Shown here: piece after piece, positions 29,601 to 61,030 of the stretch | Position numbering within the stretch: the stretch's first letter is position 1 | Layout: every line of letters begins with the position of its first letter | DNA from: Erodium maritimum | Taxonomy: Eukaryota > Streptophyta > Magnoliopsida > Geraniales > Geraniaceae | NCBI GenBank assembly: GCA_963921825.1 | Contig: OY997588.1 | Span: forward strand, 120,785,329-120,849,328 | Direction of reading: 5' to 3' | Length of the DNA stretch: 64,000 nucleotides | Translations under genes and position numbers: made by a program | Notes under the pieces: generated by a model | Told to the model about the DNA's origin: nothing | Databases searched by the model: none | What the model saw: only the letters and a program-made list of their open reading frames with translations

Positions 29601-31214
29601 GGTTTATCTATTACCCGTGTTTGTTAAGATGTATTTTGTTGACTTTTTTGTTGATCTTATTCAGTTGAAGGTCCATCTTGTTATGTGTTTTCCCTACTGA
29701 GCGTAAGCTCACCCCTACGAGTTTATTGTTGTGTTTACAGGCTTGATAGAGGAGTAGAGGCCCGGGAGCTTCTCGGTGTGGGTGTCCATAGAGACTTCGA
29801 GTTTATCTTTATTTCTGTTGAACTAGATTTTGTGGAGACTTGTTATTACACCCCTGGAGGGTTACTCTTGTTTTAAACTAAATTTTGTGGATTAAGTTTC
29901 TTATTGGGGATTTTCAGGAATTAAATGTTGAATTATTATTTTATTGTCTTTTATTACTAGTCATGCCTCGAGTCCGGGCAAGAACCGGATTTGGGGCGTG
30001 ACACTTTGTGTCACAAGAGGCTCGGGTCTGGGTGCGTCACAATGAGCTGTGGTGTTTCCAAGGTCATCCACTACTACTCGAGGAAATGGCCAACCTAATA
30101 GATCGGGAACTCCCTCATCTGGATTGCCTTCATTTATGGGTGCATGCTTGGGGGATACCGCCCCTCGTCCGAACAAGGGCGACTAAGGAAACCATATGGG
30201 AAACCCTAGGTGAGCACTTGGAAACTCCGTGTGATCAATATGGCCTTTGTTGGGGGTGGTACGGTGAGGGTTCATTTTTGGATGGACGTTCACCGGCCTC
30301 TCCAGCGAACCATGATCATGCGGTTTCGAGAGTACCTGGACCCGGTTAGGGTCAGTTTGACATATGAATGACTCCCCGCCTTTTGCTTCAATTGCGAGAG
30401 GATCGTTCATATGGTCCAAGACTACGAATGGGAGGTACCGCGGGTGCCACGCTTTGATTACTCGATTCTAGAGTTCAAGACTGATATGGTTGACATGTCG
30501 TACGCCACATATTGGGGACGGGAAGCACCTCCACTACCATCGGGGTTTGCAACGTTAACCTCGGACATGCTACTTAAGATCTAGTCATTTTGAGGGAAGG
30601 ACATAACCTTGGACACCGTACCTAACCCGGTTCTCGGGTCCTGGGTCTGATCTGGGGTGGCACCTTACCCTCAAGGTCCTGGTCAATCTTTAAAGATAGA
30701 CCACCCTAGCTGTTTAGAGATAAGATTCCTCGGGTTTGTCCCATCTAGTAAGTTGTAGGGCCCGACATGCCAGAAGAAGAATACAACGGGAGAGCCGTTA
30801 GAGGATCAGGGGAGAGCTGGGAAGCAGCCCCGCCATGAGGGATGAAAGGAATCATGGGCTCAAGGGACCTACACCTGGAGGAGCCCATGAGACGAGCCAT
30901 CACTCTCAACCAAATTGTCAAATTAAAGTTCGGTAACTCGACAAAACGAGTCCTTGGAGAGCAGGGACCAAGCAACGTTTAGGCCCTAATTTGAGCTGTT
31001 CTTGGTCGTTGGCACCTTTTGGATTATATTTCTGTTCTATTTTTGGTTTCAATTCTTGTTTTAATTATATTTATTACTTTAATTTTGATCGCTATAATCG
31101 TTTTCTTTTGGACCGGTTCATTGCCAAGGGTTATTTGATCCTTATTCCTCCAAGTTTAATGGCCAGTGTAATGACTATGTTTTACTATTAATGAAATTAT
31201 TTCTTATTCTAAAA
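26648..31214 (+). mobile_element. Half-LINE (ORF1-type only, copy B), interrupted by a solo LTR
   Basis: A 13-bp target duplication with one mismatch (AATTCGTTCACGG 26635-26647; AATCCGTTCACGG 31215-31227) brackets this element. Without the nested solo LTR (27446-30003 plus 5 bp) it is about 2.0 kb. The 5' half (26722-27237) encodes a Pro/Ser-rich region with an AKRGRPIK basic patch. A DUF4283-like part follows across the LTR insertion (...PDTFAFYF / VSQEARVWVRHNELWCFQG...) and then a degenerate zinc knuckle (FCFNCERIVHMVQDYEW). A non-coding tail ending in TTATTCTAAAAAA completes it. No endonuclease or reverse transcriptase is present. Stops interrupt the frame, so the copy is dead, but it entered as an ORF1-only unit. 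Confidence 0.72.
27446..30003 (+). mobile_element. Solo LTR, probably Gypsy family (copy 1)
   Basis: The repeat starts TGTAAAACCCACTTCGTG and ends TTGGGGCGTGACA. It is flanked by a perfect 5-bp target duplication, CTTTG at 27441-27445 and 30004-30008. Its length is 2558 bp. A second, diverged member with the same ends lies at 34429-36442. A TATA box candidate (TTTATACC) lies near 27661. GC-rich open frames at 27493-28339 are inside the LTR and match no protein I recognise. No internal region is present, so this is the product of LTR-LTR recombination. Confidence 0.85.
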
Positions 31215-31227
31215 AATCCGTTCACGG

Positions 31228-33071: not shown

Positions 33072-35199
33072 CCTTGTTTTCGTAAGTTCTTTGCTAATGG
33101 TAACAATGTATATTGAATTTATCTTTTCATTGTATTGTGTAAATTTGTTTTATATGGCAATAAAACTTTAGAAAATAAATGCAGAGAAATTTCATCTCCC
33201 GCGATATATTAGTCCATCGGCTATTAGTAATTTTTGTTACCTAATAAAATTTATTGATTATCAATATATACTAACACAATCAATCACTTAAGGGTAAATA
33301 AACTTTGGGAGCCGGCCCTAGTCTCAGGAAAGCTGAGCCAGACGAAGAAAGCGCATGACTGCTAGTGGGTCCGGAGCAGCGACTCCGTCCGGTGGGTGGT
33401 GGAGGTAAGTCCTTGTCTCCTTCTTGTGTTTCCTGGTTGTTGTTGGGTTCGGTGGTGAGATCTCACGGCTCCGGCGTGAGAAGTCTTGCTGGGTTGCCCC
33501 GCGTTCGACGTCGTAGACACCGGTGTGGTTGGTGGTGGTACGGGTAAGACGGGGGGGTGAGGCCGGTGGTGACGAGGACGTTGGACTGCTGGTTGACAGA
33601 TCCCGTCGAGAGTGGGGAATTGTCTGGTTAGGGACGTCTCTGTGGTGGATCTGGTGGTGTGCCGAGCCGATCGGGCAACGATTGGTCCGAGTTGCGTCAA
33701 GGGTAGTGTTTGGCTCACGTTGGGTTGTTCGGTGTTGTGTTGGACGGGGGTGACTGTGTGTCGAAGGTAAGGTGTTGCGGAGGAGACGAGGGGGCCAACG
33801 GTCGGGGTATCGGCGGGTTCTCGAATGAAGTTTCCGTCGTGGAATTGTAGGGGATTTGGGAAATGACGACTGTGGAGTATCTGAAAGGGGTGATCCGGCG
33901 TCGGAAACCGCATGTTATTTTCCTTAGTGAGACTCTGGCTAAGAAAGGGGAAGTGGATATCCTGAAGCTGAAGACGGGATTTCCTGGTGGGTGTGAGGTT
34001 CCAGCGGTGGGCCACAAAGGGGGAATGATTCTCTTGTGGACTGCAGAGTTGTCGGTCACGCCATATCCGAGTGAAGAGACGTGCATCGATGTGGAAATTA
34101 AAGGCCCGCTTGGGAATAGCTTCCGATTTATTGGGGTGTACGGAGAGGCGAATCGGGAATTGAGGTGACAGACGTGGGAGATGATTCGATCCCTAAGAGC
34201 GAGGGCGGGGGAGTCACGGAAATGGCTCATGATGGGGGATTTTAATGGTATTCTGAGAAATAAGGAGAAACGGAGTGGTCGCCGATATCTGAAACGCCTG
34301 ATTGCTGGGTTCCGAGGTGCAATGCGGGATGTGGGCGTGCAGGATCTCCCGCTTCAGGGATATGGGGTCACCTGGCACAGTGGGAGTGAACCAGAGACGA
34401 GAATGGCGGTGCAGTTGGACAGAGCATTTGTAAAACCCACTTCGCTTCAAAAGGGTATTAAATTGCAATCCGGAAACCTTAAGGTAGGTTTTTAAAACAA
34501 GTGCAAAAAAAAAAAAAAATTATATTTTAAAGGGCTGGACCGGGCGGGCCAGACCCGGCCCAAACCAGCAGACCCGGCCCAAGCCCAGGGTATAAAGACC
34601 TTTTTTAGGGTTTCAACCCATTAATCGGATTTGGGAACGACTCTGGAACTCTGGGTAAAATGGACTGCTATTGGGTTTAAAAAGGAACAAAAGCGGACCG
34701 CTGAGTCGGACCTCGGGATTCGTGCATTGGGACCGTGCCTCGCATGCACCGGTTTCGGTGCTCGGGTACTCAAACTGATCCGTCGTAACCCGACTTTTAT
34801 CCCGCTCGAGTTTAAGGGACAACTGTCGGTTTTAAACTGGAGAAATCTTGACCGTTAAATTAACCTTTAACTTACCGGCAGAACCGTTATTAATCTATGG
34901 CTTTCGTGTTTCTTTTAGCGTCCGGCTTCGATCGAAGTGAAGCTCGGAGGTAGCGAGCCAGAACGTCAGCAGCTAGGAAGCGTAGCGGTTGCTCTTCAGT
35001 TGAGGTAGGGAAAAGTAGCCGGATCTCGGCCCTGACTAGGGAAAGTTAACTGTAGAATTGCATGTGGCACCGGGGTGTCGTGGGTTATTTAGGTTATCGA
35101 ATGTTAGAAATGCATGATACGGGAACGTAGCGAATACAGGAAATGCATGTGACACTTAGTAGTGTCGTAGGAGCAGAGAACTTAGCGTTAACAGATTTA

Positions 35200-35305
35200 C
35201 TGGAGGCATATGACCATGCCCGGAGGTTGTTTGTGAACTAGTTGATGTTAGGAGTACTGGAGGCATATGACCGTGCCCGGAGGTTGTTTGTGGAACTAGT
35301 GATCT
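35200..35305 (+). repeat. Short tandem repeat in solo LTR copy 2
   Basis: A unit of the form ACTGGAGGCATATGACC with GTGCCCGGAGGTTGTTTGTG is repeated twice, with a third degenerate copy to about 35340. Confidence 0.7.
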
Positions 35306-35649
35306 TAGGACTGTTGGAGGCATCGTTTATGCCAGAGGTTGTTGTGCGTTATTTGTTGTTGAGTTTGGTGGCCTTGAGTGTCCGTGTTAATTGTTGTTGA
35401 GTTGGGTGGCCTTGAGTGCCCGTGTTAATTGTTGTCGAGTTTGAGTGGCAGTGAGTGTCGTGGGGTTGTTGAACCCGAGTCTTGATCGTTGGTGTGTCTT
35501 GAGTGGCAGTGAGTGCCCGTGGGGTTGTTGAACCCGAGTCTTGATTGTTGAGGTGTCTTGAGCGGCCTTGAGTGCCTGTATTGTTAAACTTGCTTGTGAT
35601 TGTGTTTGTGATTGTGACTGTGATTGTGGTTGCCTGAGTGAGAGAGGTG

Positions 35650-35865
35650 AGTGAGACAGGTCGACCGCCTAGCCTGAGTGGTTCGGCAAAGTGCATGAGT
35701 TAGACAGGTCGACCGCCTGGCCTGAGTGGTTCGGCAAAGTGCGTGAGTGAGACAGGTCGACCGCCTGGCCTGAGTGGTTCGGCAAAGTGCGTGAGTAAGA
35801 GAGGTTATTGAAACAGGTCGACCGCCTGGCCTGAGTGGTTCGGCAAAGCGCATGAGCGAAGGAGG
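35650..35865 (+). repeat. Tandem array of ~52-bp units in solo LTR copy 2
   Basis: Four units contain GACAGGTCGACCGCCTGGCC followed by TGAGTGGTTCGGCAAAG, spaced about 52-60 bp. They are nearly identical, so the array is recent. A related GAGTGGCAGTGAGTG repeat lies just upstream (about 35370-35580). Confidence 0.9.
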
Positions 35866-38800
35866 TTACTGAGCAGCTGGTTTGCGATCCTTTGTGATCT
35901 TGTTTGGTGTGCGATCCCTTGTGATCTTGTTTGGTGTTGCGTAGTTCCTTTGAGTCCTTGGAAGAGGTCGTGATCGTTGTGTCGTGTCTACTTACGTGTT
36001 TGAGTGTCGAGTCGTTCGAGGAAGGTCACCGTGGGTGTTTGTCAGTCGGAGTACTTGGGTTGGGGACAGTGGTCCCCGGGGTTGAGTTTGTTTTTGGTGT
36101 TACCGGCATTGTCTGCTAATTATGCCGTAGTCAGTCTGTTATCCGTGGTGGTGAGCGAACGCTCACCCCTAGCTGCTTTTCCTACAGGTACTGTTCGTGG
36201 GACGGACTAGGTGAGCTCTCGAAGCTTGTGGAGCTAGGAGCGGAGTCCGGGTTTTTACTTTTGGTCTAGCGACGGATACCTCGCCCTTTTGTCCGCTTGT
36301 TGGGACGTGTTTTGAATTGTAATTATCCTTTTGTTGAACTAAACTGTTATTGCAAAGTGTTTTAATGGAAATGTTTTCAAAGTGTTTTCTTATTCTAAAC
36401 GTTCGCGTCCCGAGTTCGGTTTACTGAAATTGGGGCGTGACAGCATTGATGTCCTCGACACTGAGAGTAATGTGGCCAGAGGCGCACTTGGCCAATATGG
36501 GTATTTCAACGTCTGACCACCTACCTATTCTGGTGGACTCGGACAGGCGTGTGGACCCATTTGGGTCAAGATAATTCCGGTTCGAGAACATCTGGGCAGA
36601 GGACCCGAAATGTGGCCATTTGATTCAGGCGAGGTGGGGTGCTCCGGGGGATAGAGATATTGGCACAAAGATACGGGAGACGGGCACTGAGTTGGAGGCT
36701 TGGGGGCAAAGAGGTGTACAATGCCTTAGCAAGGAAGATCGCAAGATATGAGAAGGATATGTTGTGGTTGAATGGCAGAGAGGATCGAATGAGTATTCGA
36801 CGATGCAGGGCTCTGCAGAAACTGTATGTCAAGGCCTTGGAGCACAAGGGTGAGTTTTGGAGACAACGGACTAAACAGCACTGGCTCACGGATAGTGATT
36901 AGAACACGAAATTCTTCCAGGCCTCAGCATCGCAGAGGAAGAGTATCAACAAGGTGTCAGAGTTACGGGATGGTGATGGAAACGTCCTAGCCTGGGAGTC
37001 GGGATTGGGGGACCATATTCTAGAGTTCTATAAAACTCTATCTCGGAGGACAAGGGGGGATGGGGCTAATTTCCCGAGATTCCGCCAACAACTGGCGGAG
37101 GCGCAAAACAGAGCTTTGATGGGGCAGGTGACATCGGACGAAGTGCGGGAAGCGACTTTTTCTATGGGACCTAATAAATCGCCGGGACCAGATGGTCTCA
37201 ATCCCTTCTTCTACTAGAAGTATTGGGGGACGGTGGGGGAAGACGTGACTCGGTGGGTACGAAGGATCTTTGCAGGGGAGGATATACCAAGGGATCTGAA
37301 TAAGACAACGTTAGTTCTGATTCCGAAGGTAGAGTGGTCGACGTCGCTGAAGGACCTCCGCCCTATTGCGCTTTGTAACGTGGTGTTTAAAGTGGTATCG
37401 AAGGTGGCCGCGAATAGGCTAAATGGTCTACTGGATGGGCTAATTTCATAATCCCAAGGGGCGTTTGTGCCTGGCAGATCAATACAGGATAACATCATCC
37501 TGGCTTACGAAACCTTACACTACCTCAGGAATAAGCGACAAGGGAAGAAGGGGTGGGTGGTGCTGAAACTGGATATGAGCAAGGCCTACGATAGGGTGGA
37601 GTAGGGATTTTTGTGGGATATAATAAGGGGATTTGGTTTTGGCGAGGAGTGGATATCACTCATTCGCCGCTGTACGTACTCGGTGACGTATAATATTGTT
37701 GTAGGGGGACAGCATGCGGGGTTTGTCCAACCAGAGAGGGGAATCAGGCAGGGAGATCCGCTATCTCCATACTTGTTCCTCTTTTGTATGGAGGGCTTCT
37801 CCCAGCTACTCCAAGGAGCTGAAAGTGCAGGGGAGATACATGGAGTACATGTGGCTAACGGAGCGCCAGTGCTAACACATCTATTATTTGCCGATGATTG
37901 CTACGTATATTGCAAGGCGACACCGGATGAGATCATACGTCTGAGGAACTTCCTCCGGATGTTTGAGAAGGCGTCGGGACAGGTAGTGAATCAAATTAAA
38001 TCGTCGCTTTTCTTTAGTCATAATACTCCAGAGCATATGAGGTTGGAAGGAGTGCAGATCCTAGGGATACCAGAGTTGGAGATCCCGTCTCCCTATTTGG
38101 GAATCCCGAACATGATGGGACGAAGTAGAAAGCAGGGACTGCAGTATGTGCTGGATAGGGTTCTTCGGAGCTTCTAGAGGTGGGATGAGAAGTTACTAAA
38201 TGGAGTGGGGAAGGAGGTGTTGGTCAAATCAGTGTTACAAGCAATCCCCACCTATACGATGAGTGTTATAAGGATACCTAGGGGGATCCTAGACAAGATG
38301 AATGTGGCACTTGCTCGGTTCTGGTGGAAGTCGGCAGGACCGGAGGAGAAAGGTGTTATTTGGCAGTCCTGGACGACTATGTCGCGGCCGAAGGAGGAAG
38401 GAGGGTTGGGCTTCAAGAACTTGTACACTTTTAATTCAGCCTTCCTCGGTAAACAGTTGTGGAAACTGGTAACGGAGGAAGACAACTTAGTAGCTCGGGT
38501 ACAGAAGGCTAAGTACTATCCGAGGTCCTCGGTGTTGGAAGCAGTTCGAAAACTGAATCAGAGCTATGTCTGGCAAAGTATCATGTCCGCACATGAGATG
38601 ATCAAGAGTGGGGTTCAGAGGTCAATTGGGCCTAGAACGGATAAGTCTATCTGCGACCACCCTTGGTTCACAGGGGTGGTGGCACGGGTGCAGTCGTCGG
38701 GCCCTGGAATTGATGGGAAGCTAGTGTTGGATCTTATGAGACCTAACGAGAGGAGATGGGACTCAGAGACAATTGGTACACTGTTTAGTCCGGTGGATCA

Positions 38801-39943
38801 GAGGGCTATAATGGCGGTCCCGATAAGTAAGACAGTCGCAAGGGATTCCTGGTACTGGGCGAGGGACTACTTGGGCCAATACACGGTGAAGTCGGCATAT
38901 AGTCTGGGCCACCAAGACCAGGCGACCTTCCGAGCCCAACCAGAAATCAGGTCTGCTATTTTGAAGATGGAAGTGATGCCGAAGGTCAGATCGTTTCTTT
39001 GGCGCACTTGTTCAGGATGTTTACAGGTGGCAGTTAATCTGAGGCGACGACATATGGACATGACGGCGACTTGCCCGGTCTATGCTGGGGCGGAGGAATC
39101 GGCTCTCCACCTGCTAGTTCATTGCCCGGTGGCGGCAAAGTGTTGGGCCAAGTCGGGACTGAATATACCACAAGAGGCCCAGACAATAAATGAATGGGTG
39201 CCGGGAACGCTTAACATCAATCCCCCAGGAAGCGGGGGACTGATAGGATGTATCTTGTGGGAGGTGTGGAAGGCTAGGGACAAAGTGGTCTGGGAGAATA
39301 TAGCTCAACCAGCAGCCAGTATCTTCCAGACAACATTCCATCTACAGATAGGGTGGATGGAAGCTAGGAGGAGGAAGTTACAAGCACAAGCTTCTCCCCG
39401 CCAGTCAAAGGTACAGGTTGCGGAGGTGTGGGAACATCCCACTCAGGGCACGTGGGCCATAAATACAGATGGAGCTCTTTTTGCGGCGACAGATAAAATG
39501 GGAACATGATGGATATGCAGAGATGACAGGGGCCAACTTAGGGGAGCCCGGTCCACATCATTCCATAGAGCTCAGAACCCGGGGTTAGTGGAATCCTATG
39601 CGATCCGGGAAGCGCTAACGTGGCTACAACAATATCCTCGCCAAAGGGCAGTAGTTTGGAGCAACTGCAAGGTCATAGTGGATATGATCAGACGAGGAGG
39701 GCGGTTGCTCTCTCCTCTGGGAACAATCGTCACAGATTGTACTTCCTTTTATCTACACTCGAGTGCGTGCAACTCGAATTTGTAAAACGGACAGCGAACA
39801 AAGCATCTCATTGGCTTGCCAGGGCGGCTTGTTCTAACCCTGTCTGGAATTGGCAATGGGGTCATGTCCCCGAGCCTCTTCAAAACATCATCATTGCCGA
39901 TATTTAAATAAAATCTCATATTATCTCAAAAAAACACAATCAA

Positions 39944-40429: not shown

Positions 40430-43170
40430 ATCCAAATCAACCAAGCAATAGAACGGATCTGACCATGCCAATATCACTTTGCTCAACGTTTTGTTGTGCC
40501 TATGGGGCAAAGGGTCATTCTTCCAGTATTGTCGTTCAAACGTTTGTCCTTGATTCAAAGTGAGGGCCTGGAAGCTCGAGTCTTGTAGAAAGAAATTCTC
40601 CAAGCGGTGTTGGATTGTGGGGGAGACAAAGTACCAGGTCCCGACGAGTTTTCAATGAATTTCTTCAAAAAATGTTGGAGCTTCGTGGGATCATATGTAA
40701 TGGACTTCATATCCGAATTTTAGGGATTGTCTGTTGTGGGCAAAGGCCTAAACTCTTCATTTGTTGTTCTTATTCCTAAGACGTCAAACCCAAGCAAGAT
40801 TTCTGACTTCAGACCGATTGGCCTGATTACTGCTCCATATAAGATGTTGACTAAATTTCTCACGAACAGGTTGAAGCAAGTGATAGCTGACATCATTAGT
40901 GATTGCCAGAGCGGGTTTGTTGCGGGAAGACAATTGGTAGATGGGGTCTTGATTGCTTCTGAAATTGTTCAGTTGATTAAGAGGTCGAAACAGGAAGCTA
41001 TTTTTCTCAAATTTGACTTTGAGAAGGCATATGATAAGGTGTTGTGGGTGTATTTGGATGAAGTAATACATGCCATGGGGTTTAGCATCATGTGGAGATC
41101 GTGGATGAAAGGTTGTTTTCAGGCGTTCGGTTCGGTTCTTGTAAATGGTTCTTCGAGTGTAGAGTTTACAATAACAAACAGGTTGAGACAAGGGTGCCCT
41201 CTATCTCCTTTCATCTTTTTGATAGCTGCAGAGGGGTTACACCAAGTTTTGGAGGAGTGATCGCGGGCTGGGAATTTCAGGGGCATCATTTTGGGGAGTT
41301 TGGGACCAACTGTGTCTCATTTGCAGTTTGCAGACGATACAATCTTGTTCATCAAAGGAGGATAAGAGGACTTGAGAAGTTTAAAGAATATTTTTGAAGG
41401 CTTTCAGAACACTTTAGTTCTCAAGGTTAATTTCCATAAATCGAAAGCAGTCATTCTCAACTCCAAACCCTATCGGCAGATGTGGTTGAATCGGCTTTGG
41501 AATGCAAGGTGGTGAGTTTTCCGATGAGATATTTGGGGTTCAGCCTGGGCCTAAACCCGCAAAATTCTATCTTTTGGGAACCGGTTTTGGATAAGTTCAA
41601 AGCTTCTCTAAATTTGTGGAAATGTAAGCATCAAAGCTTGGCGGGGAGAATTGTTCTGATAAAATCAACTCTGGAAGCTCTTCCCATCTTTTATATGTCC
41701 CTTTTCCGAGTACCAAAGAAGGTCATCAGGTCCATGGAAGCGTGGCAACACAAATTCCTTTGGCAAAACAGTGTAGCTAAGAGAGTCATTCACAAATTAA
41801 AGTCGGCGGATGTGTGTAAATTGAGAGCTGAAGGGGATCATGGTATTAGAAGGTTGGGAGAGGTGAATGAAAGCTTACAGGCTAAATGGCGGTGGCGATT
41901 TTTGGAGGATGTTGATAGCCTTTGAAAGAGAGTCATATGTGCGATTTATGGTTGAGATCCTAATGAGTGGGATTTGTCTAAACTGGACAAACCGGGTAAT
42001 TCTTTCTTGATTCATCAGTTTGTAGGCATTTCCTCTTATCTGAGGTTTGAAAGTATTTTTGGAGGGCAAAATGTTCATTGGCAGGTGAGGGATGGGGGCG
42101 AGCTAAATTCTGGGAGGAGAGGTGGATAGGAGACTGACTCTTATGCTTCAAATACCCTCGCCTATATCGGGTGGCTCAGCACAAACACAAACCTGTAGCT
42201 TTCTATTGGGTAAATGGGTACTGGAAGGCTGAGTATAGATGTGTTCTATGGCATGGGGAGAAGATCTTGGTTAAAGAGTTGGTGGCCGGTTTGTATCAGG
42301 CTCGCCTGCAGGAGGGTGTCAAGGACAAACTTATTTGGTCTAAATTTCCTAAGGACCCGAGTTCTGCAACCACTTACCAGCTCATTGTAGGGTCTTCCAA
42401 TGTGGCTCCAACATGGACTCGTCTCCTGTGGGTTAAAGGTGTTCTGCCCAATTATTGCACGTTTGTATGGCTATTGATGTACAAAGCAGTTCCGACGCTC
42501 TCTTTCCTAGAAAACAGGGGCTGCAGGATATCCTTGAATGTTATGCGGCGTTACTTTTGCAAGGACAAGTTTGAAGACCAAGAGCATTTATTTTTACACT
42601 GTGATTATGCGCGGTTTCTCTGGTGTAAGATATACAGGTGGTGGAATGCGATTTGGATAATGCCAAAGGAGGAGATAAATTGCTTATTGATGTGGGAAGG
42701 GCTGAGTCCAAAATGCTGGTGGAAGGGATGGGTCATTATCGGGTATTCTACTATGTGGAGCATCTGGATATGCCGAAATAATACTGCCTATCACGCTAAA
42801 GTTGACGCCATTGACAAGGTATTTTTAAATCTACAACAACATTACTTCGGTCTTGCGAGGTTTGGCGGGTCTGCTGATATCGGAGGCTCGGTGGGAAGTT
42901 TGGGTGCATTATCCGGATCGTTGTTTGGTGGGTGGCCGAAATCCTGTAGTGGCAGGTACTCTCGCACGCATTGAGGGACACTCATTTTAATCGAGTGGTT
43001 TGCAGGGTGTGCAAGAGTTCAAAGCGGGAGAGTGAGGATGGTTATTTGTACCTCTCTTTTTCCCCCCTTTTTTTCAGTTATGTGTCTAATCCCCTCGAAT
43101 TGATTGGACCCTCTTTTGTATATGAGCTCCATATATCAAGATAATAAAATCCTTGCTTATCAAAAAAAAA
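40430..43170 (+). pseudogene. 5'-truncated L1-type LINE, ORF2 part, broken
   Basis: The copy starts within ORF2, just before the reverse transcriptase (GDKVPGPDEFSMNFFKKCW at about 40617). The RT (about 40727-41350) has FVVLIPKT, ISDFRPIGLI, SGFVAGRQLVDGVLIASEI, KFDFEKAYDKV and LRQGCPLSPFIFLIAAEG, then FADDTI in another frame at about 41330. The post-RT region (41482-41925) has FPMRYLGFSLGL and WKCKHQSLAGRIVLIKSTL. A zinc-finger-like part (42171-42974) has KDKFEDQEHLFLHCDYARFLW. Non-coding sequence then runs to AATCCTTGCTTATC and an A tail at 43162-43170. There are several frameshifts. I found no target duplication. The SFIFLIAAEG type of RT differs from the SPYLFLFCMEG type at 33-39 kb, so this is a second LINE lineage. 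Confidence 0.85.
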
Positions 43171-44118: not shown

Positions 44119-44132
44119 AATAATAGTCGAAA

Positions 44133-46209
44133 GTAAATCTATTCTACCTATTGGGAAAAAAATAATAATAAACCCTAAGGTTTCTTCTCCGCCGCACACC
44201 AGTCGCCACGCCTCCGGCACAGTCTTCTCCGGCTTGGTATGCCTCTCTGTTTCCTGACCTGCTTCGGTTGGGTTGTTGTCGATTGTTGTAGGCTGACAAA
44301 GGGGATCAGATCGGTGAAGGCGTGTTGCTGCATTCGATGTGGTGTGTTACATCTCGGATCCGGCCCGTGGTACATGTTTTGATTCTGGTCCGACCGACAT
44401 TGTGTCGCTGTGGAGTGCTGCATCATCACATATCTGTGAATAAGAGGTGGGCGAAGGTGTGGATTACTACAGCCGTATTTGGTCGGTGTGCTTTGCAGGT
44501 TCGTTATGTGGTTTTGTAGCAAAGTGGCGGGTTGTTGCACTGTCCTTTGATCGGTGAATCAAAGCAATGTCATTGGGTTGCTGCAGTGCGTGATCAAAAA
44601 GTAAGGGCTCCAACAATCATCCCCTATCTCTATGAAGCCTCCTTCTCTCTCGTCGCCACGACTTCGCCGGAGACCCAAACCTGTCAATGGGCTTTTGGCG
44701 GAGGTGACTGTGGCGTTGGGATCAAACGTTCCAAGGTTAAGATCCGAAAGGTCTCGACAGAGAAGAAGAAACGTGAAGTAGAGAAAATTGATCATGTTTC
44801 AGATCATGGCCCTGTTCATCGTAAGAGGAGGCGACTGTTTGCAACATCTTCTGGTTCTGCAGATGCGGCATAAGCCAATATTGCACGGGACAAGTCATCT
44901 TCAATTCTTCGTGTTGGTACCGAGTCGTAGAGGGTTTCGGTTGTGAAGCAATAGGTACAAAGGGATGTTCGTCGACCTTGGGCAATGAGCGGCAATTACA
45001 TTGAATTAGAGGATGAGGTTTTTGTGAACAGCTTACCGCTTGAAGCGTCAGAGGAATGGACCCGAAATGTGTTTAGTCCTTTCGGTACGATCGTGTCCAT
45101 AAGCGTTCCAAAACGGCCAAGCCGAAGCAATCATTACTTCGGTTTTATTCGTTTTAACTCAAAAGACGCATCGGCTAAGGCGATAGAGGCCTTGAACGAG
45201 TTTAAGATCAATGGTTATACTCTTTTTGTTGCCAAGGCGTGGCGTCGCCGGACGACTACATGCTCTGTTTCTAGAGTTCCGAAAAAAAGCATCATGTAGC
45301 CTTCAGAATCTCGGGTACAATGTGAGGAAGGCCAGGGCGTTCTGGAGATCGATTTGGGATTGCAAGAGTCCGGTGTGGTGACTGTAGGCGTCGGAGTCTC
45401 GCCGGAGTTGGTCGTTCAAGGTGAGGAGAATTCAAAATCATCGTCTGTTACGGATGAGGAGAGTTCAAAATCACCTTCTGTTGCGGATGAGTTTGGATTG
45501 GATCTCACTCGGGATTCTCTCGACCTCTCCAGGGATTCTGTTCGACTCGAGGAAGACGAGGTTGAAGACGTCGATGCTGGTGGGCCGTCTGGGCCTAAGA
45601 GCAGGCCTACTCAGATCATTTCAGACGGGCCTGCACATGCCATTTTGGACGGGCCTTATTCCGGGCTTGTTCAATGTTTTGGATCAGAGCCCATTTCAGC
45701 TTTGTCAAGAGAACCAGTTGCTCTTGTTTACGTTTCCACGGGTCAATCCTCCCCGTGAATGGATGCCCTCGTACAGTCAAAACGTGTGAGCCACCCCCCT
45801 AAACACTTGACAAAATTTTATACTCTACAGTGTAAACCAAAGGTTTCTTTGGATCGCGAAAGGTATATCCGTCCCGTCGATATTAGGAAACAGGTTGAGC
45901 AAGTCCGAATCGGAAAAACTCAGGTCGTGGCATCGTCACAGGGCACTAACGCATGGAATTCAATTCATGAGTTGGCTGCCAAGAAGGATGCGAAGATTAG
46001 GTGTTGACCTCGGGTGTCAAGGATTGGCGGGGTTTCTTCTGTTTTTTTCAGCTCCTTGTTTTTCCTTTTTTAAAAGGTTAGGCCTTTTGGCTCATTTGAT
46101 GGTGCCCCTTTGTAATTGTTGGTTCCCACCCTGTTTCTTTTTGAAGCAGGACATTCTGATTCCTATTTGGAATTAGTCTTAATAATAAATTTTTGAGCTT
46201 ATCAAAAAA
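44133..46209 (+). mobile_element. Half-LINE with RRM-type ORF1 (BNR-like), no ORF2
   Basis: A perfect 14-bp target duplication (AATAATAGTCGAAA at 44119-44132 and 46210-46223) brackets a 2.08-kb element ending GAGCTTATC plus an A tail. The terminal GCTTATC-A(n) motif is the same as in the LINE at 40430-43170. The content is ORF1-like only: a Lys/Arg-rich stretch (about 44700-44870), an RRM (44985-45299), an acidic Ser/Glu/Asp-rich linker (45354-45758) and a basic end (to 46007). RRM-bearing ORF1 proteins are known from the BNR-type L1 LINEs of plants. No endonuclease or reverse transcriptase occurs between the ORF1 end and the A tail, only about 200 bases of UTR. It is thus a non-autonomous unit that inserted by LINE-type retrotransposition. 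Confidence 0.78.
44985..45299 (+). CDS. RRM-domain protein of LINE ORF1 type (fragment)
   Basis: The 104-residue frame reads as one RNA-recognition motif. The RNP2-like strand is EVFVNSLP (about residues 10-17), the loop has FSPFGTIVSISVPK, and the RNP1-like strand is NHYFGFIRFNS (about 47-57), followed by ASAKAIEALNEF. The end of the frame is Arg-rich. In plant BNR-type LINEs such a domain replaces the DUF4283/zinc-knuckle type of ORF1 and binds element RNA. The acidic and basic parts of the same protein continue downstream in other frames, so the ORF1 is broken by at least one frameshift. A host SR-type splicing factor is the alternative, but the position inside a target-duplicated element argues against it. 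Confidence 0.65.
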   Translation: MSGNYIELEDEVFVNSLPLEASEEWTRNVFSPFGTIVSISVPKRPSRSNHYFGFIRFNSKDASAKAIEALNEFKINGYTLFVAKAWRRRTTTCSVSRVPKKSIM

Positions 46210-46223
46210 AATAATAGTCGAAA

Positions 46224-47966: not shown

Positions 47967-48029
47967 AAGAACAGGAACATACAACCCTGTGCATAACATA
48001 TCTCACGTACTACAGCAACTATTTCAATC

Positions 48030-51000
48030 ATGTGTCCTTCTTCTTTGATCTGTGATTTAAAAGAAACTTCATCATTTCATCCGATCATAACCCTTCTGTT
48101 AGGGCTTGTTATTGTTATTGTTTCGGCCATGAAAGTGAAGCACTATTTGTTCACGCCAAGAAAGGCGGAAGAAGATGATTATAAGCTTCCTCCGGGCCCG
48201 AAACCATGGCCCGTAGTAGGCAACCTTCCGGAGATGCTATGGTACACGATGAGGCAGAAGCAGCCGGCGTACAGATGGATCCACGAGCTCATGAACCAGC
48301 TCCGGACGGACATCGCGTGCATCCGTCTAGGCAGCGTCCACGTCATCACGGTGAGGTCGCCGGAGCTGGCTCTGGAGTTCCTCCGGGACCACGACTCGGT
48401 GTTCTCCTCGAGGCCCGCCACCCTGAGCACGGGGATCACCAGCCACGGGTTTCTGTCGACGGTGGTGACGCCAGAGGGCCACCAGTGGAAGAAGATGAGG
48501 AACATGGTCAGCGGGCACATGATCAACCCCGCCATGAGACTCGAATGGCTGCGCCGGAAGAGAGACCAAGAAGCCGACAACCTAGTACGCTTCGTTTACA
48601 ACTGTTGTCGGACAAAAGTGAGTGTTGCACAAATTCTTTAATTACTGAGATTTTGTTCTTCCTCTTACTCCGTGTAGTTCTAGTATTTTAATTAAAGGGT
48701 AAAATCGGGAATCAACTATTGTTGAGTTGTACCGCTCAAGAACATGCTGCTAATTTGTTAGCCGGTCAGATTTGCACGGATGACTTTATGTATTTATTAA
48801 AAAGTAACGTTTTCCGTTAGAAACTTACATTTTCTATTTTCCGTTAAAACTGACGGAAAACGTTAGGAAAAACTCCAAAAAGTAACAAGTCTACAATTAG
48901 TTTTTGAGTTCAATAGTCATATGACAGTTAGTTCTTGAAGTTTTTCCTAATGTTTTATATCACTTATAACGGAAAATGTTAGTTTGTGTAATTACGATAA
49001 GTCAAGAGGCCTGATCTGATCGACAAATAAGTCAGCAGCAAGTTTTTGAGATGTACAAGTCGAGGATAGTTGGTATCTTGATTTTTTTTCCTTTAAATTA
49101 ACAATATTTATCTGTTTATTATTATTTATGGACTAACCCGTCGGACAACAATTAGTACGGAAGCAACAACGGTGTGGTGAACGTTAGAGTGGCGGCGTCG
49201 CACTTCTTCGGGAATGTGATGAGGAGGATGTTGTTCGACCGGAGGTATTTCGGGTCAGGAAGGGAAGACGGAGGTCCTGGTGTTGAGGAGGAGGAGCAGA
49301 TGGAAGCGGCTCTTAAGGTGATCGACCACATTTATTCTCTCTCTCCTTCGGATTACAATGCGATCTTCAGAATGCTGGATTTGGACGGGCATGGGAAGGT
49401 TGTGAGGGAGTCTATGAGAAGCATTAGCAAGCACCAAGACCCCATAATAGAGGACAGAGTGAAGCAGTGGAGAGGTGGGAACAAGGCTGAGCCTACGGAC
49501 TTGCTTGATCTCTTGATTCTTGCCAAGGATTCAACCGGTCAGCCCTTGTCCACACAAGAGATCAAAGCCCAATGTGGGGTGAGTGAGTACTTAATCTTCC
49601 TTTAACTTGTCTAGGAAGTGTTTGTGTCTCATACAATATACAATCACTTGATAAAGAAAAAAAGTGAAAGCTTTTGGTTTCATTTAGGTTGTGAGGAAAA
49701 TATCACTTCTATACAGACTTTGCTTGGAAAGTTTATGACCTACAAAATCCGATTTGGTCTCATATTAGGATGGTCATCAAATTCTCTGGTTGGGTTCTTA
49801 ATTCCTTCAGTTTTAGACTACTACACAACATTTTTGGTCTTAAAGGTATCTTGAGAAGCTTGTGAGAATTTAAGCAATTTATGTTAACTTGGATAACAAG
49901 CATAAAGTTTTTGTTGGGTAGTCAATAGACTCGGGTAGACTCTGTAACCCCTTTTTCACCTCAAAAAGGCTTAATTTAAATAGACTTGGGCAGATGTATG
50001 AAGGGCACAAGGAATACATCCCTCAATCTTTTTTTTTCTTTCTAAAATTAGTATTTAATTTCTGAATTATATTTTATTTAAACTTTTTTAGTTATATTCT
50101 CTTCAACTTCTAGATTTTACGTTTTACCATATTTTTTAATTTTGTTATTATTTCATACTTTTTATGATTCTATTTAAGTCATTGCTTAGAGTTCGAGGCT
50201 ACTATCAACTTGAGTTGAGTATTTATCTACAAACTTACTATAGTCCAAAGAGGTACGTCAACAAAAATCACTCTAACAACCCTGATAATAAAAAAGAAGA
50301 AATCGAATAAAAGACGATAAATGAGTGATAATATGATCGTTCACATACATCATTTTTTTATTGTATTGATAATCGATATAACATTTTGTAATAAATAGCT
50401 ATTATTATATTTTATGTGATATTAATATTTTAAGATGACTTTACATAATTAATCTTACTTCATCTATTATTACAAAAAAAAAAATCGGTGTTCCTCTCAT
50501 TGAAAAAATTTAGATCCACCATTTAGTTCATAAGTAAGTAAAGCTAATTACCTTTAGTACCTCTTATGTATTGGTAACATATATTTATTACATCTTATAT
50601 ATCTATTGGAAACGTACTTAACACAAATTTTGTCAAGGTTACATTATTTTGATGATTTGTGATCAATTCATAAGACATTAATTATTCAGGAACTAGTATT
50701 TGCGACCGTCCATAACGCTTCCAACACGGTGGAGTGGGCGATGGCAGAAATGATGAGACAACCTGACATTCTCCGAAAGGCGGTAGAGGAAATAGACAAA
50801 CTGGTCGGAAAAGAACGATGGGTTCAAGAGTCCGATCTGTCGTCGCTACGTTACCTCAAGGCATGTGTGAGGGAGTCCTTCAGGCTCCATCCCATATCCC
50901 CCTTCCTTCCTCCTCACGTCTCCACTGCCGACGCCGTCGTTTCGAATTACTTCATACCCAAAGGAAGTCACGTTCTATTGAGTCGTATAGACCTCGGCCG

Positions 51001-52155: not shown

Positions 52156-53150
52156 TGTAGTATATTGGCTCCAAATGGGCCTGTTTTTGGCCCATAACTA
52201 AAAGCCCTCTCAACAAATCACTTAAGCCCATATCCTCTTCTCATATGATGCTACAAGGGGAACAGTAGGGCACAGTGATTAGAAGCGAGACGAGACGAGG
52301 GGGCTGGCGGCTTCATTGAGCAGAGACAAGAGGGAGAGGACTAACCACAAAGGAGAGCTAATCTTGATTGTGGTTTGACTGCAAGGAATATCAAGAATCA
52401 ATTCTTGGTGGTTGTGGTCTGTGCTGCAGAAATCAAGCTCTTGGAGGTTCTTACTTCTTAATTCTTCTTGTGTGGTTGGCTGTCAAAAGAAAAAGAAAGG
52501 GAGTGAATGGTTTTGAACAAAACCGTGTGAAACATCACCAAAGGTCTGTATTTCCTCTTGTTTCATTTGGTTGATGTAAAAAGAGCATTAAATGCTCTTT
52601 ATATTCACATGGAGAAGCAAGGGCATGGTGGCATGAGTGGCGGGACAGAGAAGGGAAAATAAGGTTTATTTCTCCTTTTATTTGTTTGGTGCTATATGAA
52701 TCCAATAATGCTCTGTTGATGTGTGGATATGTCTCCGATAGAAGATTGATATTGGAGTTATGGGATGGATCTCATATTTACAGCAAGACATGAATTAGCC
52801 TCGGGTTGTAATTTGTATTGAGAAGTAGGGAATTAGGATTGTAATTCTCGGATTATTTCTCGGATAATACAAGGAGCTCGTCGTTGTCCCGTGGATGTAG
52901 GCACATTGCCGAACCACGTAAAATTGCTTGGGTTCTCTGTTTTATTTTCTGCAACTTTATTATTTGTTCCGGTAATTTTCGCTTATCAGACATTTTAGTA
53001 TTTATCGACTATGTCCTAGGATCGGGGGTTGGAAAATCAAGGTTGTCGATGTCCGTGTGGATTGAGTCGCGTCGGTTCTTTTTCCACGGATCCGATTGAT
53101 TTTCTGGGTGAGTCTCGTATTCCGTTTTCGGGGGTACTAGATTTACTACA
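52156..53150 (+). repeat. 5' LTR of the Copia element
   Basis: It starts TGTAGTATATTGG and ends TTTACTACA. Short frames inside it occur again in the 3' LTR and are not genes. Confidence 0.93.
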
Positions 53151-53152
53151 AG

Positions 53153-53164: not shown

Positions 53165-56100
53165 CCGGTTGAGCTACTAGTGTCAGAGCATCCTGGTTAT
53201 TTGGCTAGTTGATTGGTTATTGCTGTGTTTGCAAATATGTCTGATAGAGCGTCCACATCTCGGGATGAGGGTTATGTGAAGGTCCATGGGTTCGATATTC
53301 TTCGATTTAATGGACGGAACAATTTTAAAGCTTGGCAGATGGATTGTAAGGATATTCTGGTTAGTTTGGATCAGTTTGATGCATTGGTAGATAAACCATC
53401 AGAGGGTGATCAATTGGTTAGATGGAACAAGATGGATCAGAAGGCTTGTAGTACGATCCGTTTGTGTCTTTCTCGGAATGTGGCTTACAATTTTGCAGAT
53501 GAGACGACCGCCAACGGTATTTGGGAAAAGCTTCAGGCTATGTATCTTCAAAATGATCAAATGAGTGTGATGTACCTGCAGAAGAAGCTCTTCACTTTTA
53601 GGCTACAGTCAGGTAAACTTATGACTGATCATATTACTGAGTTTGAGTGCTTGTACTCGGATTGTGTTAGCTTGGGAGCTAAGTTTGAAGATAGTCAGAA
53701 AGCTTTATTCTTGTTAATTTCTCTGTTGCTGGAATGAGAGTCGTTTGTTGATCAGATGACTATGATGAACAAAGAGAAGTTTGTGTATGGTGACATTGTT
53801 CAATCTATACTAGCAAAGGCTTCTAGGAAGAGTGCTGTGAGCGAGGACGTTCTAGCACACGGTCTCTCGGTTTCAAGGGGGAGAAATTCAAACAAGAAGT
53901 ACAACAACAATAGAAGAAGTCGATCTCAGTCGAGGGGTAGAGATTTGTCTAAAGTTGAATGTTACAAATGTAAGCTTAAAGGCCATTACAAGAAGGATTG
54001 TCCAGAGTTGAAGGACAATCGCACCAAACAAGATAAGGGAAAAGGCGTGGCAAATGTGGTTGAGGTACCGGAGATAGTTGAGGATATTCATATCGACGGT
54101 GACCTAGCGCATGCCTTGACAGCGGGTTCTAGTGATCATTTGTATGATGGTTGGTTGTTGGATACAGGGGCTTCTTATCACTTGTGTCCGGTTCGGGACT
54201 GGTTCACCACCTATCGTGAGGTGGAGGGTCGCTCAGTGTATATGGGTGATTCTCGACCCTGCAGGATGTTAGGTGTTGGCACAGTCAGATTCCAGCTAGC
54301 AGACGGGTCATGTAGACAGCTTACCGAGGTACGCCATATTCCGGATCTTGCAAGAGGGTTGATTTCTCTTGGGGTACTTGAGGCTCAGGGTTACAGGTAT
54401 GTTGGTGAGAATGGCTATTGCAACGTTTATCATGGTGACAGGTTGCTATTATCGGCAATTAGGCATGCCAATCTCTATTTTCTTCAGGGTAATGTTGTTG
54501 AGGGTGGAGCTATGGTCTCCACGGTTATTGATGAGAAGAGCTTGGCTCGCACTCAGTTATGGCACATGTGTCTAGGGCATGTAGGTGAGAGTGGACTGAA
54601 GACTTTGAGCAGGCGTGGCTTGCTTGGCGGTGACAAGATGGAGAAGCTTGATTTCTGTGAGCATTTTGTTTATGGGAAGCAGTGTAGGGTCACTTTTGGT
54701 GACGGTATTCACAACACCGCGGGTATTGTGGATTATATACACACTGATGTTTGGGGACCCTCGAGAGTTGCATCGAAGGGTGGGTCCCGGTATTTTGTGT
54801 CTTTTATCGACGACTTCAGCCGGAGAGTATGGATCTATACCATGAAGCATAAAGATGAAGTCAGGGATATTTTCAAGAAGTGGAGGGCTATGGTTGAGAA
54901 GCAGACAGGTAGGGTGATCAAGGTTTTGAGATCTGACAATGGCGGTGAGTACACCGAGGATCCCCTTAAGGAGTTCTGTGCAGAACATGGCATCAAGAGA
55001 CACTTCACAGTGAGAAAGACACCACAACAGAATGGGGTAGCAGAGCGGATGAATCGTACCCTATTAGAGAGAGCACGGTGCATGTTGTCCAATGCAGGTT
55101 TGGGCAGAATATGGTGGGCTGAGGCAGTAAATACGGCGTGCTACTTGATTAACCGCTCTCCTTCATCAGCTATTGAGTCCAAGGTTCCTATGGAGGTATG
55201 GTCCGGTAATCCTTCTAATTATTCTAACTTGAGAGCATTTGGTTGTCCGGCTTACTATCAAGTTAAAGAGGATAAGATTGGAGTGAGGGCCAAGAAGGCT
55301 ATATTTCTCGGTTATCCTGAGAATGTGAAGGGGTACAAGTTATGGTACCCAGAAACTCAGAAGTTTGTGATTAGCCGGGATGTTACATTCCATGAGGAGG
55401 CTTTGCTACAGGAAAAGTGAGAGAGATGCAAGGACGGTTCTCCTATTTGGAGAGGTGATAGCTATGATGAAGACAAAGAAGATAATCATCAGGTGGAGCT
55501 TGGAGCTCCTAGTTCTATTTCTCAAGCAGGTAGTTCTTCACAGATTGTACCTGATGAGACTGTTATTGATGATGATGTTCCTATTGATGGGAACGAGGCC
55601 CTTGCACAACAACAGGTTCAGCAGATTGAGACACCGTCTTTGGTAGCGGGTAGAGAACCTAGGGTCAGACGTGCACCTCGGAGATTCGGCTATGAGGATG
55701 GGGTAGCTTGTGCTTTCCCGGTTACTGATTATGATGTTCCTAACACATACAAGCAGGCTTTGCGTGATGATCGCAAAAGGGAGTGGAAGGACGCCATGGA
55801 TGAGGAGATGTCATCTCTTTATAAAAATCAGACTTGGGAACTTGTTACACTTCCTAAGGGAAAGAGGTCGATTGGGTGCAAGTGGATCTTTACAGTGAAA
55901 GACGGGATTCCAAATTCCAAGGATAATTGTACGGGTATAAGGTACAAGGCAAGATTGGTGGCTAAGGGATATGCACAACAAGAAGGTGTGGACTATAATG
56001 AGGTATTCTCTCCGGTGGTAAAGCACACTAGTATCCGAGTCCTATTAGCATTGGCTACGCAGTTTGATTTAGAGCTCGAACAACTTGATGTTAAAACTGC

Positions 56101-57186: not shown

Positions 57187-57846
57187 GGATAAACTGGTAA
57201 TGTTGGAAAAAGTCGATACCAAGGAAAACGCAGCTGATATGTTGACGAAGGTGATTCCGGTGATCAAGTTAGAGCATTATCTCAACTTGATCAAGATTTC
57301 TCGATGTTGATGCCCCTCGGAGGCATCAACCCTTCGGGGTGGGGTCTTTCCGACCCGGTGGAGGACGACGAGCAGGTGGAGCTTTTTATGGGTTTTGTCG
57401 CCAAGGTGGAGATTGTAGTATATTGGCTCCAAATGGGCCTGTTTTTGGCCCATAACTAAAAGCCCTCTCAACAAATCACTTAAGCCCATATCCTCTTCTC
57501 ATATGATGCTACAAGGGGATAAACTGGTAATGTTGGAAAAAGTCAATATCAAGGAAAACGCAGCTGATATGTTGACGAAGGTGATTCCGGTGATCAAGTT
57601 AGAGCATTGTCTCAACTTGATCAAGATTTATCGATGTTGATGCCCCTCAGGGGCATCAACCCTTCGGGGTGGGGTCTTTCCGACCCGGTGGAGGACGACG
57701 AGCAGGTGGAGCTTTTTATGGGTTTTGTCGCCAAGGTGGAGATTATAGTATATTGGCTCCAAATGGGCCTGTTTTTGGCCCATAACTAAAAGCCCTCTCA
57801 ACAAATCACTTAAGCCCATATCCTCTTCTCATATGATGCTACAAGG
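57187..57846 (+). repeat. 330-bp tandem duplication at the 3' end of the Copia element
   Basis: Copies 57187-57516 and 57517-57846 each hold the end of the RNase H coding part, the purine-rich tract and about the first 103 bases of the LTR. The copies differ at about seven sites (2%), more than the two full LTRs differ from each other (about 0.3%). Confidence 0.9.
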
Positions 57847-58738
57847 GGAACAGTAGGGCACAGTGATTAGAAGCGAGACGAGACGAGGGGGCTGGCGGCT
57901 TCATTGAGCAGAGACAAGAGGGAGAGGACTAACCACAAAGGAGAGCTAATCTTGATTGTGGTTTGACTGCAAGGAATATCAAGAATCAATTCTTGGTGGT
58001 TGTGGTCTGTGCTGCAGAAATCAAGCTCTTGGAGGTTCTTACTTCTTAATTCTTCTTGTGTGGTTGGCTGTCAAAAGAAAAAGAAAGGGAGTGAATGGTT
58101 TTGAACAAAACCGTGTGAAACATCACCAAAGGTCTGTATTTCCTCTTGTTTCATTTGGTTGATGTAAAAAGAGCATTAAATGCTCTTTATATTCACATGG
58201 AGAAGCAAGGGCATGGTGGCATGAGTGGCGGGACAGAGAAGGGAAAATAAGGTTTATTTCTCCTTTTATTTGTTTGGTGCTATATGAATCCAATAATGCT
58301 CTGTTGATGTGTGGATATGTCTCCGATAGAAGATTGATATTGGAGTTATGGGATGGATCTCATATTTACAGCAAGACATGAATTAGCCTCGGGTTGTAAT
58401 TTGTATTGAGAAGTAGGGAATTAGGATTGTAATTCTCGGATTATTTCTCGGATAATACAAGGAGCTCGTCGTTGTCCCGTGGATGTAGGCACATTGCCGA
58501 ACCACGTAAAATTGCTTGGGTTCTCTGTTTTATTTTCTGCAACTTTATTATTTGTTCCGATAATTTTCGCTTATCAGACATTTTAGTATTTATCGACTAT
58601 GTCCTAGGATCGGGGGTTGGAAAATCAAGGTTGTCGATGTCCGTGTGGATTGAGTCGCGTCGGTTCTTTTTCAACGGATCCGATTGATTTTCTGGGTGAG
58701 TCTCGTATTCCGTTTTCGGGGGTACTAGATTTACTACA
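57744..58738 (+). repeat. 3' LTR of the Copia element
   Basis: It has the same length as the 5' LTR and about 99.7% identity by eye. It ends TTTACTACA. Confidence 0.93.
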
Positions 58739-58980
58739 ACATCATCCAGCAAGCCAAGACAACCACCCGATCATGTATTTAGAACCTTGGTATTGTATAT
58801 TTGTGCTTATCTCCAGTCGCCGTCTCTCTTCTATTACGTTTTATAGAAGTTCTGGTTGGTTTTATTCTAGTATGTTGGATCACCTATTTTTACAAACGGG
58901 GGATACCGGCCTATATCTCTGCTTGTTTTGGGTTTTATCCCTTGTTCTCGTTGCTGTTATGGTTTGGATATAATTGAATG
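58739..58980 (+). pseudogene. LINE-like fragment, right part with 3' UTR-like end
   Basis: It follows directly on the 3' LTR and ends in GTTTGGATATAATTGAATG, resembling LINE 3' UTRs, with an A-rich stretch shortly after. It is taken as the continuation of 51546-52155. Confidence 0.35.
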
Positions 58981-59841: not shown

Positions 59842-61030
59842 TTATTTACGATAAGGTACCCTAATTTTCGTCCATGAACGATAAGGTACCCTAATGAATT
59901 TTGTGTCCGATAAGGTACCCTAATGATTCGTCCACGAACGATTTGGTTTAATGCTGTTAAAAAACTAACAGAATTATGTAGAATGACTATTTTGCCCTTT
60001 AACATTTCAGTTGACTTTTGACTTAAGAGTGAAATGACCATTATACCCTCATTATTATTTTTCCTTAATTTATATTTTCTAATTAATTTTAATTTTCAAA
60101 ATAAAATAAATAAATTATATATATATTTTTAAAGTTATATTTTTAAAAAACTGAATTTTTTTTTTCAAAAATCTGTTTTTTTAAATCATATTTTTATATT
60201 TTAAAATCAGATTTTGTATTTAATTAGTTTTATTTTTTTAATAATTAGTTTTTTTATATATAAATATATTTTTATTAAAAAAATTTATAAATAAAAAAAT
60301 CATTTTTAAAAAAAAAAATCGCATAACTGTTCTTCTTCTCCGGCGTCGTCTCCGGCCATCCCCTCCTCCGCCGTTGTCGTCCCCGGCCACCCCCACCTCC
60401 GCCACCTCCTCCCTCTTCCACCTCCCACCGTCCTCATCTTCCTCGCAGAGCTGAAGCTCGCGATTTGGTTTAGATCTGAACCAAATCGCGAGCTTCAGCT
60501 CTGCGAGGAAGGTGAGGACGGTGGGAGGTGGAAGAGGGAGGAGGCAGCGGGGGTGGGGGTGGCCGGGGACGACGACGGCGGAGGAGGGGCTGGCCAGAGA
60601 CGACGCCGGAGAAGACGAACATTTCTGCGAATTTTTTTTAATAAAATTAATTTTTTAAAAAAATAAAAATGATTTTTTAATTTTTTTAATTTTTTAATAT
60701 TTTATTTAATTATTTTAAATAATTTAATTTTAAAATTTAAATTTATTTATTTATTTTATTTTTATTGTATTATATAATTAAGGGTATAATGGTAATTTTG
60801 TCTATAAAATTTATAAGCTTAAAATAAGAAAGGGTAAAATCGTCATTTCACACCCCACTTAACTGCAAATGTCTAATTTAGAGGAATATTCCGTTAGTTT
60901 TTAACGGAATATGCCAATTTTAAACCAAATCGTTCGTGGACGAATCATTAGGGTACCTTATCGGACACAAAATTCATTAGGGTACCTTATCGTTCGTGGA
61001 CGAAACATTAGGGTACCTTATTGTAAATAA
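59842..61030. mobile_element. 1.2-kb palindromic foldback element
   Basis: The whole element is an imperfect palindrome centred at about 60473 (AGATCT). The outer arms carry repeated GATAAGGTACCCTAATGA units, then CGTCCACGAACGATTTGG, then the phrase AATGACTATTTTGCCC. The middle is AT-rich. The innermost arms are a GC-rich stretch (about 60335-60465 and its inverse to about 60615) full of CCGGCC and CTCCTCC. The style is that of MULE-type MITEs, including the TAxCCCT-type phrase shared with 20215-20633, but no clear 9-bp target duplication was found. The GC-rich core may be captured host sequence. It has no coding capacity. Confidence 0.8.

Follow-up and report, generated by a model that had tools for sequence, protein, structure and literature searches.

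What kind of insertion occupies positions 44133 to 46209 of this stretch, where an A-tailed unit with an RRM-type ORF1 lies between two flanks that carry the same 14 bp? An earlier note had taken it for a half-LINE mobilised in trans. We analyzed the surrounding window (here, the whole stretch of 64,000 nucleotides), which by look is plant nuclear DNA, with a plant-type LRR region at 1-1887 and a cytochrome P450 exon at 47997-48638. The insertion, referred to below as element A, has the following parts:

44133 to 46209, plus strand: element A, without ORF2 (delimited by the duplication and Pfam scans)
44119 to 44132: left copy of the 14-bp target-site duplication (exact repeat, with chance control)
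44133 to 44984, plus strand: 5' region up to the first in-frame ATG, with in-frame stops at 44871, 44928 and 44952
44985 to 46007, plus strand: RRM-type ORF1, with internal stops at 45297 (TAG) and 45756 (TGA)
45018 to 45224, plus strand: RRM_1 domain match (Pfam E=1.1e-14; solved RRM proteins)
46008 to 46203, plus strand: 3' untranslated region ending in GCTTATC
46204 to 46209, plus strand: A tail (8 A including two that overlap the duplication)
46210 to 46223: right copy of the 14-bp target-site duplication (exact repeat, with chance control)

On the plus strand the 14-mer AATAATAGTCGAAA is present at two places and no more, 44119-44132 and 46210-46223; the identity extends no further on either side, and the right copy directly adjoins the A tail. 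When 60-bp stretches lying 1.5-3 kb apart in the 64-kb window were paired at random 5000 times, the longest word in common was 12, and the perfect duplication described in the earlier note is thereby borne out. Its length agrees with the range reported for the poplar LINE Celine, whose duplications span 10-30 bp and average 15 (PMC11288735). The GCTTATC-A(n) end that had been read from the letters was likewise recovered: GCTTATC lies at 46197-46203 and 8 consecutive A come after it, the last two of these being counted in the duplication.

The ORF1 frame runs from the ATG at 44985 to the TGA at 46005-46007; its 340 codons are interrupted by two internal stops, while the alternative frames carry 10 and 21. 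Shuffles averaged 13.5 stops and none of 1000 had two or fewer, which argues that the frame was open when this copy arose, or shortly before. Because of its two internal stops, the present copy is non-coding and dead, so that the retained ORF1 proposed earlier stands as an RRM frame and falls as an intact gene. The RRM matched 176 distinct solved sequences at E<=0.01, including ordinary proteins such as PABP and PUF60. Upstream, the 5' UTR had been called short, a description that has to be abandoned: about 850 nt precede the first in-frame ATG, and the three in-frame stops there may lie within a 5' UTR. For Celine a 5' UTR of 635 bp is reported, together with a 3' UTR of 189 bp (PMC11288735), and the latter agrees with the roughly 196 nt between the ORF1 stop and the tail of element A. 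A candidate coding stretch upstream of 44985 was rejected, an open run of at least 117 codons being found in 202 of 1000 shuffles.

That element A carries ORF1 without ORF2 was confirmed. Pfam matched no endonuclease (EN) or reverse transcriptase (RT) family in its three plus-strand frames, where the only hit besides RRM_1 was a sub-cut-off match to DUF5345 (E=0.22), and the RT, middle and C-terminal proteins of the neighboring LINE described below gave zero tblastn matches to it. A LINE ORF2 can start with an MKIxxWN-like sequence; a hidden endonuclease start at "...AKIRC", before the TGA at 46005, was considered and rejected, as several indels would have to be assumed for it and Pfam is blank there. 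An RRM-type (BNR-like) LINE has an RRM in ORF1 and an ORF2 with EN and RT: element A has the RRM, and since the EN/RT ORF2 is missing it can at most have derived from such a LINE. Searches of non-plant collections, which carry little weight here, gave zero matches for the RRM query in viral contigs and in plasmids, for the 340-aa ORF1 in prokaryote genome contigs and for the RT query in phages, while the RT of the neighboring LINE matched four loci in viral contigs at 27-31% identity. As no homologous LINE ORF1 was retrieved from these non-plant collections, the LINE identity of element A rests on its 3' end and its architecture.

The 3' end leads to a second element, LINE B, which the earlier note had proposed as a partner and which is considered here with the predicted hairpins of both elements:

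40430 to 43170, plus strand: LINE B, with RT and zf-RVT, 5'-truncated and decayed (5' limit from the earlier note)
43084 to 43109: predicted hairpin of LINE B (8 bp, 10-nt loop)
43114 to 43141: predicted hairpin of LINE B (11 bp, 5-nt loop)
46130 to 46150, plus strand: predicted hairpin 1 of element A (8 bp, 5-nt loop)
46156 to 46176, plus strand: predicted hairpin 2 of element A (8 bp, 5-nt loop)

LINE B does contain the RT attributed to it (Pfam RVT_1, E=1.1e-34; zf-RVT, E=6.1e-13), and it ends with GCTTATC at 43155-43161 followed by A(9). The two strands of the window together have 57 A7+ runs, and this motif directly precedes two of them, the tails of elements A and B, out of nine occurrences in total with both strands counted; a third LINE end, ...TTATCTC-A(7) at 39927, is related yet different. 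Besides the 7-base motif the two 3' ends have an AATAAA-like stretch in common, and their likeness is confined to about the last 23 nt: the local alignment score was matched by 31 of 1000 shuffles for the last 30 nt, by 328 for the last 100 nt and by 393 for the last 180 nt. Homology of the whole 3' UTRs was accordingly rejected (best local score equalled by 222 of 500 shuffles). Nor does the A tail alone name a partner, since 224 of 233 flowering-plant L1 families are reported to terminate in (A)n (PMC3747384).

LINE B begins just before its RT, holds several stops and frame breaks, and shows no convincing target-site duplication. Its observed/expected CpG ratio is 0.58, against 0.93 in element A, where it is near expectation despite the stops. 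On these grounds LINE B is probably older or more heavily methylated than element A. As an active partner this copy is ruled out, although a relative could serve, and of the proposed partnership the terminal motif survives while a likeness of the 3' UTRs beyond about 23 nt does not. Based on a short motif and on a structural resemblance noticed post hoc, the partner claim is weaker than it had been made.

That resemblance lies in the 80 nt that precede the tail, where both elements have two predicted hairpins in tandem. The folding energy of this segment was reached by 3 of 5000 shuffles for element A and 130 of 5000 for LINE B, and two hairpins of at least 7 bp appeared in 79 and 51 of 5000 shuffles, respectively. 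Across the window, the double hairpin was present at 3 of the 57 A7+ runs; among 800 stretches taken as background it appeared in 10, and a z of -4.3 or lower in 6. The rule defining it was fixed post hoc, after the folds had been inspected, and the signal is seen at 80 nt only: in terminal segments of 45 or 60 nt the folds of both elements are unremarkable (z -0.65 to -1.25). The double hairpin is not exclusive to LINE ends, since the third A7+ run lies inside the ORF1 of element A (45282) and another case adjoins a run of 6 A in AT-repeat sequence (20368, minus strand). We therefore treat the predicted double hairpin as a lead. A conserved 3' stem-loop has been reported for one plant L1 lineage (PMC3747384), and if the hairpins recur in other copies they would bear on whether plant L1 elements recognize RNA structure or only poly(A).

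We think it probable that 44133-46209 is the target-primed insertion of an ORF2-less RNA from an RRM-type, L1-clade plant LINE. The donor RNA would have retained its 5' region along with ORF1 and its 3' end; the bottom strand would have been nicked by L1-type machinery at CTATTATT/GATTAG, the A tail would have primed, and copying of the RNA would have left the 14-bp duplication. ORF2 would have been lost before or during copying: the donor element may have carried a deletion, the LINE RNA may have been spliced, or copying may have jumped between templates. We infer the route of this loss, as well as the supply of the insertion machinery in trans and the assignment of the ORF1 to a LINE. Because target-primed copying begins at the 3' end, ORF1 is the first part to go missing from ordinary LINE debris, and LINE B, starting just before its RT, is an example of such 5' truncation. 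Element A kept its 5' region, ORF1 and 3' end and lost ORF2, and is thus no ordinary 5' truncation. Argued from this mode of insertion, an RNA already without ORF2 is the simplest source and deletion in place the main alternative. Against our explanation count the match of the RRM to ordinary RRM proteins and the failure of the non-plant collections to yield a homologous LINE ORF1; nor did we see any full-length relative in which ORF2 follows this ORF1.

A full-length LINE that inserted and later had its ORF2 deleted in place would look identical, its duplication and both ends unchanged, but the loss would have to fall precisely between the ORF1 stop and the 3' UTR and to have taken every ORF2 family match from the plus-strand frames, and we consider this course improbable. 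We give similarly little credence to a processed pseudogene, the LINE-copied mRNA of a host RRM protein. Such an origin would suit the many cellular RRM proteins matched by element A and the lack of a LINE ORF1 relative in the non-plant collections, and many pseudogenes of this kind are reported in flowering plants (PMC3747384); however, neither GCTTATC before the tail, as in LINE B, nor a double hairpin is expected at the end of a host mRNA.

Insertion of an ORF2-less RNA, the explanation we favor, has as a special case, not as an alternative, that element A belongs to an ORF1-only plant family comparable to mammalian HAL1, which would have many copies with one ORF1-to-3'UTR junction throughout and would depend on a full-length RRM-type LINE for copying in trans. 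The layout looks complete, from 5' region through ORF1 to 3' end with zero trace of ORF2, the ORF1 frame is still mostly open, and the terminal motif and double hairpin recur in the RT-bearing LINE B. On the other hand, the 64-kb window holds no second copy of element A and the one copy has two stops in its ORF1, so that we regard such a family as possible but on the unlikely side; a one-off, whether from a spliced or deleted RNA or by loss in place afterwards, is no less likely. More doubtful still is the fuller model of a parasitic plant half-LINE, in which the RRM protein of a plant ORF1-only family would bind its own RNA and the RT of a partner RRM-type LINE would read the double hairpin and GCTTATC-A(n), not only poly(A).

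Two further modules in the window provide a second lead:

25520 to 24436, minus strand: module M, with zf-CCHC_4 (E=2.4e-6, just above cut-off)
30127 to 31216, plus strand: module P, with DUF4283 (E=7e-8) and a zinc knuckle below the Pfam cut-off

They are 79% identical over 1070 aligned positions and carry what is left of the second kind of plant LINE ORF1 (DUF4283 / zf-CCHC_4); conservation of the DUF4283 ORF1 of Celine is reported for LINEs from a variety of plants (PMC11288735). Both terminate in TTATTCT(C)A(6-7) and then diverge, and neither holds an ORF2 within the module, so that they look like two insertions of a unit made of ORF1 and a 3' end. Against that reading, module M is followed on the same strand by an endonuclease, starting about 390 bp on, and an RT, and for this reason M and its neighbor could be one LINE. 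Downstream of P, on the same strand and after 2.6 kb, lies another ORF2; the ORF2s that follow M and P match each other in short pieces only, and no convincing target-site duplications were found for either module. The ORF2 beyond P (about 33842-39927, plus strand) encodes endonuclease, RT, zf-RVT and RNase H and contains tandem repeats around 35.2-35.9 kb. Elsewhere in the window we noted an LTR retrotransposon with 994-bp LTRs (52158-53151 and 57746-58739) and an integrase at 53738-55417, which is young, as its LTRs are 99.8% identical; a 333-bp duplication (98%) overlaps the start of its 3' LTR. An inverted repeat at 60292-60657 consists of two 183-nt arms, 91% complementary, with zero spacer.

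Among known systems, Drosophila HeT-A is a non-LTR element with ORF1 only that obtains its RT from elsewhere; it resembles element A in this organization and is itself telomeric, with a gag-like ORF1. A LINE with an RRM in ORF1 (BNR, from Beta vulgaris) is said, by the title of a 2009 article by Heitkam and Schmidt, to exist; likened by that description, element A has the same domain in ORF1 and lacks ORF2. HAL1 encodes ORF1 alone, has poly(A) and duplications, and needs the RT and EN of a full-length LINE (PMC5322556, PMC4859970). Element A has the same features, an ORF1 kept without ORF2, an A tail and a target-site duplication, but HAL1 is a population that in human numbers nearly 2,100 copies (PMC5322556), whereas here there is one plant copy with an RRM-type ORF1. 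Human SpIREs, reported to be spliced L1 RNAs that can be inserted, are similar in that LINE machinery inserts an internally shortened LINE RNA; those described lose the 5'UTR or 5'UTR/ORF1, not ORF2 (PMC5860796). No plant half-LINE appeared among the matches listed in titles and abstract openings of open-licence PMC articles, which is no proof that none has been described.

Element A thus fits an ORF2-less LINE insertion, and we do not assign it to a HAL1-like family. Taken by itself, as one decayed copy, it is a commonplace accident of retrotransposition. If it does belong to a family, ORF1-only LINEs would have arisen in plants too, with an RRM ORF1 protein, and they would offer a natural system in which to ask whether keeping the ORF1 protein aids the copying of ORF2-less RNA.
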